NCBI GenBank assembly: GCA_002779825.1
Contig: PEVN01000452.1
Span: 18,371 to 82,370, forward strand
Source of the DNA: Armatimonadetes bacterium CG06_land_8_20_14_3_00_66_21
Lineage (GTDB): Bacteria; Armatimonadota; Abditibacteriia; CG2-30-66-41
Direction of reading: 5' to 3'
Length of the DNA: 64,000 nt
A program made the position numbers and the translations under genes. The notes beneath the pieces were generated by a model, which was given only the letters and a program-made list of their open reading frames with translations, searched no databases and was not told where the DNA came from. Of the stretch, positions 11,956-16,308 are shown one piece after another; position 1 is the first letter of the stretch, and every line of letters begins with the position of its first letter.

Positions 11956-12294
11956 GTGCCCGCTCCGCCGAGCCTCTGCGAACCCTACGAGCAGGCGACC
12001 GTCCTCCGCGAACTGCACGAGCGCTTCCCCGGCATGCGCCCGCGAATCCAGATGGAGGTCGACCAGTTCGGGCGGCTGGTCGACTGGACCTGGTATGCCC
12101 GCCGCGGATCCGCCTATCTGTACAACAAGGAGTCCATGGCGGTTACCGTCGAGTCGCCCCAGACGGCAGCGGCGCTCCGCCAGCAGGCCCGGTGGCGGGT
12201 GCTTCAGGAGAGCGACTGGGAGATGACGTTCCTCGTGCCCGATGCCGACTTCGCGGAGGTGGCAGGGCTGGTGGGGTTGCACCAACGGGTGTAG
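11956..12294 (+). CDS. hypothetical protein
   Basis: 112 aa, GTG start; MPAPPSLCEPYEQATVLRELHERFPGMRPRIQMEVDQFGRLVDWTWYARRGSAYLYNKESMAVTVES; coherent hydrophobic/charged pattern, no antisense competitor of known family. Confidence 0.5.
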   Translation: MPAPPSLCEPYEQATVLRELHERFPGMRPRIQMEVDQFGRLVDWTWYARRGSAYLYNKESMAVTVESPQTAAALRQQARWRVLQESDWEMTFLVPDADFAEVAGLVGLHQRV

Positions 12295-12318
12295 CGGCCT
12301 GGTCTCTCTGTCTGTACA

Positions 12319-12516
12319 ATGTGCTCCGTGCGCCTCCACTTCGATCCTGCCAAGAACGAGCGCAACATCCGCGACCGCAGGCTCTCCTTCGAATCGGCGG
12401 CCGACTTCGACTTCGACGGCGTGGTGTACGTTGACGATCGGGAAGACTGCGGAGAGACACGCTACGTTGCGATAGGACTGCTCGACGGCTATGCCAAAGC
12501 CCGAAGCTCTCGTTGA
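12319..12516 (+). pseudogene. brnT: truncated BrnT-family toxin
   Basis: LHFDPAKNERNIRDRRLSFESAADFDFDGVVYVDDREDCGETRYVAIGLLDG matches BrnT up to the mid-beta-sheet, then ends abruptly (YAKARSSR*). Confidence 0.65.
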
Positions 12517-12766
12517 CGCTCTCGGCGAGGTGCGAGAGATCATGCCGTCCGACCTCGAGGGCTTTCGTCCCGCGCGGGAGGCGCTGCCGGCATCGCGCTG
12601 CAAGACCGTCGGCGTGCCCGGGCCGCAGAAGACACCCACCAAGCAACGCCTCCCCCTCAGGCTGTCGGCAGACGTCGTTCAACGGTTTCGCGCAACTGGC
12701 GACGGGTGGCAGACACGGGCGGACGCGGCCCTCCAGGACTGGCTAAAGTCACACAATCCTGCGTAG
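12491..12766 (+). CDS. brnA: BrnA-family antitoxin
   Basis: MPKPEALVDALGEVREIMPSDLEGFRPAREALP...QRLPLRLSADVVQRFRATGDGWQTRADAALQDWLKSH; ribbon-helix-helix C-terminus with GWQTR typical of BrnA. Confidence 0.75.
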   Translation: MPKPEALVDALGEVREIMPSDLEGFRPAREALPASRCKTVGVPGPQKTPTKQRLPLRLSADVVQRFRATGDGWQTRADAALQDWLKSHNPA

Positions 12767-14535: not shown

Positions 14536-16308
14536 ATGGCAATGATGCCCGTGATTGAGCGGATGTGGAGAACCTGTTGGACCGTGACTGTGCTGAGCCT
14601 CAGCGCGGGTCGCTGTCCGGTGCAGGGCGCGGAAGTGAAGGTGTGGAACGGCGACTACGTCCCGCCGCCGCGGCCGCTCAAGACCGAAGTCACAGTCGGT
14701 GCTTACGTCTTCCCAGGCTGGTACCGCGATGAGGGCAAGGGCGACTACCCCTACAAGACCCACGACGAGGACAGCGAGTGGCGCCAGGTCGCCAAGTGTC
14801 CGAAGCCGCGACCACTGCTTGGCTTCTACGAGGATTCGCTGCCGGAGGTCAACGACTGGCACATCAAGTGGGCGCTTGAGCATGGGGTGTCCTTCTTCTG
14901 CTTCGACTGGTACTGGAACGCCGGCGAACACCGACTGCTCCGCACTTTGGAGCGCGGGTTCCTGAAGGCGAAGTACTGCGACCAGATGAAGTTCTGTATC
15001 CACTGGTGCAATCACGGGCTGGATTGGCGGAACAAGAAGTGGAACCGCCCTCTGGACGAAGACTTCCGGACCAAGGCGCTGGTCGAGATGAGCGAGTACC
15101 TCGCCGACAACTACTTCAAGCTGCCGAACTACCTGAGGCTCGAAGGACGGCCCGTCCTCGTGGTCTGGGACGCCAAGAGCCTCATTCAGGCCAATGGCGG
15201 CGCAGCCGGGTTTGCCGCCGCGCTGGACGCGATGAACAAGGCGCTTCGGGACCGAGGAATACCGACCCTCTACCTACTCGCCATGTCCAACAGCCAGGGG
15301 ATCCGAGCGGGGGGCTTCGCCGCCACCACCGGGTACGGCTACTACGGGACCGACTACGACTCGAAGTACGAGTGGCGCGCCGGCCGCAGCGTCCCGTACG
15401 ACGAAGTCGTCAAGCACTATGAATCGGTGTGGCGGGGGATCACCGCTGACCCTGTGCTCCCTTACGTGGTGGCCATCGGCTCCAACTGGGACAGCCGCCC
15501 GCGTGCCGGCGATAATGCGGCCGTCATTTCCGGCAAGACGCCTGCGAAGTTCGAGACCATGTGCCGGAACAGCCTGAAGTACGTCGACAAGGGGCTGAAC
15601 CTGGCGATCATCGAGGCTTGGAACGAGTGGGGCGAAGGCAGCTTCATCGAGCCGGACAAGGAGTTCGGCTTCGGGTTCCTGGACGCTGTGCGGAGGGTGT
15701 TCGGCGACGGGACGGGCAACCATCCCGACTACGTGCCCACGCCGGAGAAGATCGCCTCCTTCAGCGTGCTGAAGGGCGACGAACTCGCCAAGGCCAGTGA
15801 GGTCGAGAAGCAGCCGTACCTCGATCCGCCGCTGTCGCTGCGAACCGTGGAGTGGAAGATCGATGAGCCGTTGCCCGACACCAAGGTGCTCAGAGGATGG
15901 GAGTTCGACGGCGCTTCCAGCGAGGGCTGGATGCCCTACCATATTGAGCCGCTCGCCGTGCGCGACGGCGTGCTCCTGACCGCTGTCACGACCGAGGATC
16001 CACAACTCATCGTCGACAATGTGGGCGTGACCCTCGACGACATGGGGTGTCTTGCGCTGCGGCTCCGCGTGCCCGACGGGGTCTCCTCCTGCGAGCTGTT
16101 CTGGACGACTGCAGCCGAGCCGACCATGTCTGCCGACAAGGCCTTCCGGTTTCCGCTCAAGGGCGAGGGACAGTGGCACACGTACCAGGTCGCCAAAGCG
16201 GCGGAAGGCAAGTGGAGCGGGGCGCTGAAGGTCCTCCGGCTCGACCTCGGCGGGCCCGGGGACAAGCTCGAAGTGGACTGGATACGGCTATATGGCAAAC
16301 AACGTTAG
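14536..16308 (+). CDS. secreted GH99-like / WbsX domain protein
   Basis: 590 aa; EVTVGAYVFPGWYRDEGK...LLGFYEDSLPEVNDWHIKWALEHGVSFFCFDWYWNAGEHRL...LAIIEAWNEWGEGSFIEPD is typical of WbsX/GH99-like proteins. Confidence 0.8.
   Translation: MAMMPVIERMWRTCWTVTVLSLSAGRCPVQGAEVKVWNGDYVPPPRPLKTEVTVGAYVFPGWYRDEGKGDYPYKTHDEDSEWRQVAKCPKPRPLLGFYEDSLPEVNDWHIKWALEHGVSFFCFDWYWNAGEHRLLRTLERGFLKAKYCDQMKFCIHWCNHGLDWRNKKWNRPLDEDFRTKALVEMSEYLADNYFKLPNYLRLEGRPVLVVWDAKSLIQANGGAAGFAAALDAMNKALRDRGIPTLYLLAMSNSQGIRAGGFAATTGYGYYGTDYDSKYEWRAGRSVPYDEVVKHYESVWRGITADPVLPYVVAIGSNWDSRPRAGDNAAVISGKTPAKFETMCRNSLKYVDKGLNLAIIEAWNEWGEGSFIEPDKEFGFGFLDAVRRVFGDGTGNHPDYVPTPEKIASFSVLKGDELAKASEVEKQPYLDPPLSLRTVEWKIDEPLPDTKVLRGWEFDGASSEGWMPYHIEPLAVRDGVLLTAVTTEDPQLIVDNVGVTLDDMGCLALRLRVPDGVSSCELFWTTAAEPTMSADKAFRFPLKGEGQWHTYQVAKAAEGKWSGALKVLRLDLGGPGDKLEVDWIRLYGKQR

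Follow-up and report, generated by a model that had tools for sequence, protein, structure and literature searches.

An antitoxin gene beside an internally deleted toxin gene: a BrnT/BrnA locus as a probable orphan-antitoxin remnant in an Armatimonadetes genome

The window, the 64,000-nt stretch of DNA analyzed here, carries on its forward strand a BrnT fragment (12319/12328-12516) overlapped by a complete BrnA open reading frame (12491-12766). The locus is real, and the coordinates given for this toxin/antitoxin pair in an initial annotation of the DNA were borne out. The best explanation is that the toxin was lost by deletion and that BrnA is an orphan-antitoxin remnant that is now mostly drifting, a reading to which we assign a probability of about two in three (0.68). 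Specifically, a horizontally acquired brnTA would have lost its toxin through one 87-nt in-frame deletion within brnT. The remnant peptide would be no nuclease, brnA would be translated weakly, mainly by ribosomes reading the brnT remnant through the overlap, and, without a toxin to restrain, the DNA-binding strand of BrnA and the operator would have begun to erode. Such an antitoxin would have no essential role today, acting at most as a passive neutralizer of closely similar incoming BrnT.

The brnT remnant was delimited using a seven-relative codon alignment. Read from ATG 12319 it has 65 codons; from GTG 12328 it has 62 codons followed by TGA (12328-12516). The first codons of brnT in relatives align at GTG 12328, not at ATG 12319, and the GTG is probably the true start. 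The similarity to BrnT that had been noticed up to GLLDG was confirmed by a match to PF04365 of 41 bits, which is above the cut-off and covers profile positions 1-51 of 77 alone rather than the whole domain. The genes are adjacent and, as annotated, the ATG of brnA at 12491 lies within the toxin 3' end; with its toxin incomplete, the locus falls short of a complete type II toxin-antitoxin operon. PADLOC returned no match.

The nature of the lesion was apparent from the end of the toxin frame. In relatives, brnT continues for 29 further codons (RLHVLCF...RKAN-REV-R) and then ends in YAK-xxxx, within which brnA starts. In the window, GLLDG is joined directly to YAKARSSR-TGA, such that the N-terminal 54 codons run in frame into the native last 8 codons and the frame is open through the native, brnA-overlapping end with no intervening stop. 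The tail (12490-12516), TATGCCAAAGCCCGAAGCTCTCGTTGA, gives an ungapped alignment with the native brnT end of L011, TATGCCAAGGTCCAAGCCTCTCGTTGA, with 22 of 27 nt identical. L011 is the closest relative and served as the reference for the deletion and for residue numbering. This level of identity is reached by 1 of the 63,973 27-mers in the window, the tail being the best; other relatives end in YAKIQTAD or YAKARSPDQ. The match to the native end argues that the brnT lesion is an internal, in-frame deletion with the C-terminus retained, not a C-terminal loss. The junction, GGC/TAT, lies at 12489-12490, where 87 nt (29 codons, L011 residues R56-R84) are absent. Comparison with BrnT/BrnA pairs thus upheld the view that the toxin is broken and that some 25-35 residues are gone (the count is 29), but not the proposed site and manner of the break: the C-terminus had been called missing and the last 8 codons unrelated, whereas the missing block is internal and the tail is native.

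The alignment revealed a second in-frame deletion, of one codon (3 nt), in the N-terminal part of brnT, along with changes at conserved positions. The presence of these independent changes makes it very unlikely that the lesion is an assembly or consensus artefact in a population whose brnT is full-length. Further, the two parts of brnT meet cleanly, in frame, and with no N at the junction. The source of such an error would be a metagenome-assembled genome of 578 contigs, 93% complete and 6.6% contaminated, and the brnTA allele of the window is known as a single copy.

The missing block contains much of what the family conserves. Across 44 aligned proteins, 20 BrnT positions, start Met included, are invariant or nearly so, and 11 of these are in the block: R56, F62, R70, I72, S73, R75, K76, A77, N78, R80, and E81. 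The AF2 model of L011 BrnT (pLDDT 95.7) has strands at residues 46-53, 56-65, and 68-76 and its last helix at 79-91. The block comprises strands 56-65 and 68-76 plus residues 79-84, the first half of the C-terminal helix, which bears the conserved KAN-RE motif. Mutagenesis of Brucella abortus BrnT identified five residues important for RNase activity, Glu78 among them (PMC5086665); the corresponding L011 residue is most likely E81, which lies within the missing block. With two core β-strands of the family's four-stranded sheet, half of the last helix, and 11 of the 20 conserved residues gone, the toxin is almost certainly dead. It is hardly credible that the shortened BrnT still functions as the toxin of a working minimal module. 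It does retain three residues (D6, K9, and the arginine of ETR) that probably correspond to others required for activity, but it lacks two core strands as well as the conserved C-terminal motif. The initial annotation had made its reading depend on short BrnT homologs not being common and toxic; among the toxins beside the 80 related brnA genes of this sample, no otherwise intact short BrnT was found. A Foldseek search of the PDB with the L011 BrnT model yielded no significant match, and a sequence search of the PDB with BrnT yielded one distant toxin chain, 7vd7.

The deletion also affected brnA. The nearly invariant RE-V codons of brnT double as the Shine-Dalgarno sequence of brnA (GAGGTN), and this native site, GAGG(TNAAG), was within the deleted block. 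The only Shine-Dalgarno-like stretch left before brnA is AGGA at 12474-12477, 13 nt from the ATG. The energy of the duplex with the 16S tail is −3.9 kcal/mol in the window versus −5.6 kcal/mol or lower in 20 of 24 relatives with intact brnT. Translation of brnA may now depend on the weak AGGA or on ribosomes passing through the brnT overlap. Four of the intact relatives (L014, L021, L023, and L032) also have no strong Shine-Dalgarno sequence, so weak translation of brnA is not certain.

The brnA frame (12491-12766) encodes 91 residues and matches PF14384 over its full length (67 bits, profile positions 7-68 of 68). The RHH helix segment FRATGDGWQTR is fully conserved. The strand residues have changed: R43P, T55P, E52Q, and I54L. 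In the 80-sequence alignment of relatives, position 55 is T in 60, S in 16, K in two, and N and R in one each, and never P; R43P and L36R are likewise at well-conserved positions. The strand that bears T55P is the one that touches DNA in RHH proteins. The window BrnA was modeled with low confidence (pTM 0.32), too poorly for placing T55P structurally; judging from what is known of the family, the substitution would bear on DNA contact. A comparison of BrnA with the PDB gave no convincing relative. Overall, the window BrnA has 15 residues absent from 30 close relatives, the most of all 31 sequences. Its dN/dS relative to L011 is about 0.1 with dS near saturation, similar to that of intact pairs; most of its divergence is therefore older than any relaxation, and the low value may simply reflect a recent deletion. 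With synonymous sites near saturation, relaxed selection is not demonstrable from dN/dS. The idea that toxin loss speeds up BrnA evolution was also dropped: the window, L026, and L034 have long branches, and L016, L017, and L019 do not.

Upstream of brnT, alignment with 34 relatives revealed a promoter/operator remnant, CTGTCTGTACAAT, at 12308-12320, 7 nt before GTG 12328. Compared with the brnTA consensus, TTGTRYRTACAAT, it has kept the right half of the palindrome and a −10-like TACAAT and has lost the left half. Using a leave-one-out position weight matrix, the total score is reached by 0.04% of random 40-nt stretches; the right half scores at the median of the relatives and the left half below all 34. 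Together, T55P, R43P, and the lost operator half suggest that BrnA autoregulation is eroding, and autoregulation by the window BrnA is less likely than anti-addiction. The initial annotation had called the antitoxin intact and had allowed it a role as a regulator. An antitoxin-bearing remnant with a complete BrnA frame is indeed present, but the native ribosome-binding site is deleted, the prolines in the RHH strand are unique, and half of the operator is gone, all of which counts against a regulator role.

These data bear on the possibility that the short brnT was kept as a non-toxic leader coupling the translation of brnA, perhaps with a product that binds BrnA as a co-repressor. Consistent with this, both brnT deletions (87 and 3 nt) are in frame with no stop between them, and the genes still overlap as in the native pair despite the loss of the native Shine-Dalgarno sequence. 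However, without any constraint, two deletions would both be in frame with a probability of 1 in 9, half of the core sheet is gone, and the operator half-site and the DNA-contact strand are eroded. We consider such a leader unlikely. It is similarly improbable that brnT was hollowed out under selection, leaving a harmless leader that feeds ribosomes to an SD-less brnA as an antitoxin-only shield; if this were true, the phage brnA genes described below, which begin at the former start of brnT, would represent the same outcome reached by another route.

Returning to drift after toxin loss, the origin of the pair was evaluated from BrnA and its neighbors. The window BrnA is 70% identical to a Burkholderiales copy and is sister to that copy in the tree (support 85/82), and 100 genomes related to the host lack BrnA of this type. 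The gene at 14536, a downstream neighbor, shares 64-72% identity with genes of the same phylum and class; the contig therefore fits the host phylum, with the pair as an acquisition. The brnTA pair was acquired horizontally, probably from Burkholderiales-like donors, as judged from these similarities. An empty insertion site was not found; one neighbor gene in two relatives stands without the other neighbors. Just upstream of the pair, a 112-residue frame (11956-12294; L150) matches no known Pfam family. It has a single paralog (55%) in the rest of the genome; 60 relatives have none.

The search for further brnT copies in the genome that the initial annotation had proposed yielded six full BrnT-like matches, five of them above the family cut-off, and one marginal match. 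In C463, C403, C53, and C202, an open toxin frame is followed by a different small antitoxin-like frame. The window BrnA is not obviously serving these other toxins, because they are divergent and most are paired with a different antitoxin of their own. It is thus an orphan in that it is the sole BrnA above the cut-off in the genome and its cognate toxin is incomplete. Two of the BrnT-like toxins, C181 (L005:229-477) and C284 (L006:1501-1725), have an internal stop (TGA and TAG, respectively), and up to three of the genome's seven BrnT-type toxins look disabled. A weak BrnA-like gene, C303 (L010:1501-1704; 22.7 bits, below the cut-off), has no toxin seen adjoining it and is a possible second orphan antitoxin.

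Toxin loss was also surveyed at related loci. Among 41 same-clade brnA loci with upstream sequence (L011-L052 without L041), brnT is broken, partial, or absent at ten: L016, L017, L019, L026, L028, L034, L038, L040, L046, and L051. In L026, L034, and L046 the reading frame is broken, which could reflect sequencing errors. In the reverse census, all 12 close brnT-anchored loci have brnA. The asymmetry between the two censuses (12/12 versus 31/41 loci with a partner; Fisher P = 0.09) is suggestive only, as anchoring on near-complete toxins is biased. In L016 (4881-5270), a deletion has joined the initial ~40 codons of brnT to brnA in the same frame; we read this locus as a natural BrnT-BrnA fusion without the nuclease core.

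In three viral contigs, L151 and L152 (which have one difference) and L153, brnA is present and brnT is absent (around 1471-1768). The neighbors of brnA there are a terminase small subunit gene and a ParB/methylase gene. The brnTA operator, TTGTTACTACAAT, immediately precedes the start codon, which stands at the expected start of brnT; brnT seems to have been cut out such that brnA now starts where brnT did. Between the two phage lineages of brnA, pN/pS is about 0.3, and the protein changes are all in the N-terminal third, leaving the other two thirds identical despite synonymous changes. The phage brnA is a candidate counter-toxin or regulator, and a functioning orphan antitoxin is more plausibly encoded by these genes than by the window brnA. 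Bordetella phages carry a full brnTA pair, and a related gene stands alone in Rhizobium phage RHph_N3_2.

Whether the window BrnA might likewise be kept, for neutralizing the BrnT of incoming plasmids or phages, is doubtful. Anti-addiction by orphan antitoxins in general is a published idea (PMC7192599, PMC7354431), brnTA of the same family is found on phage and plasmid records, and the two phage lineages keep brnA alone under a brnTA operator with most of the protein unchanged. Against this, no close plasmid copy was found (best full-length match, 49%), and it is the window BrnA that has lost its Shine-Dalgarno sequence and has the most unique substitutions of the 31 sequences. An orphan antitoxin that is mostly drifting remains the preferred reading.

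The locus resembles the BrnT/BrnA system of Brucella abortus (PF04365/PF14384) in its toxin-first operon, overlapping antitoxin frame, Pfam matches above both cut-offs, and, in the relatives of the window, palindromic operator-like promoter site. It differs in that the toxin is without 29 internal residues, the Shine-Dalgarno sequence is deleted, an operator half-site is lost, and the RHH strand is altered. As in the orphan antitoxins of Klebsiella pneumoniae (PMC7192599), an antitoxin is kept in its original context beside a degraded toxin; here, however, the lesion is resolved exactly, the host phylum and antitoxin family are different, and the allele is known from a single copy. BrnT-BrnA fusion genes (PMC11980606) are also modified brnTA loci, comparable to L016, whereas the window has two separate frames and no fusion. 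Orphan antitoxins are well documented (PMC7192599, PMC7354431), so the window locus is a further instance of an ordinary sort of decay, not a novel class. It provides a clear step in the death of a toxin-antitoxin module, in which the toxin goes first, through an internal deletion that takes the ribosome-binding site of the antitoxin with it. This locus, the remaining decayed brnT loci, and the toxinless phage brnA genes form a small comparative set for distinguishing orphan antitoxins that are debris from those that are shields.

Finally, the operators of the relatives pair with the RHH strand of BrnA. BrnA proteins with VSTTIRL stand behind TTACTACA (L014, L016, L020, L021, L023, and L151-L153), and those with ERITIRL mostly stand behind TACATACA/GCATACA (the rest of L011-L050), with L035 as an exception. 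This pairing could help in finding which bases BrnA reads.
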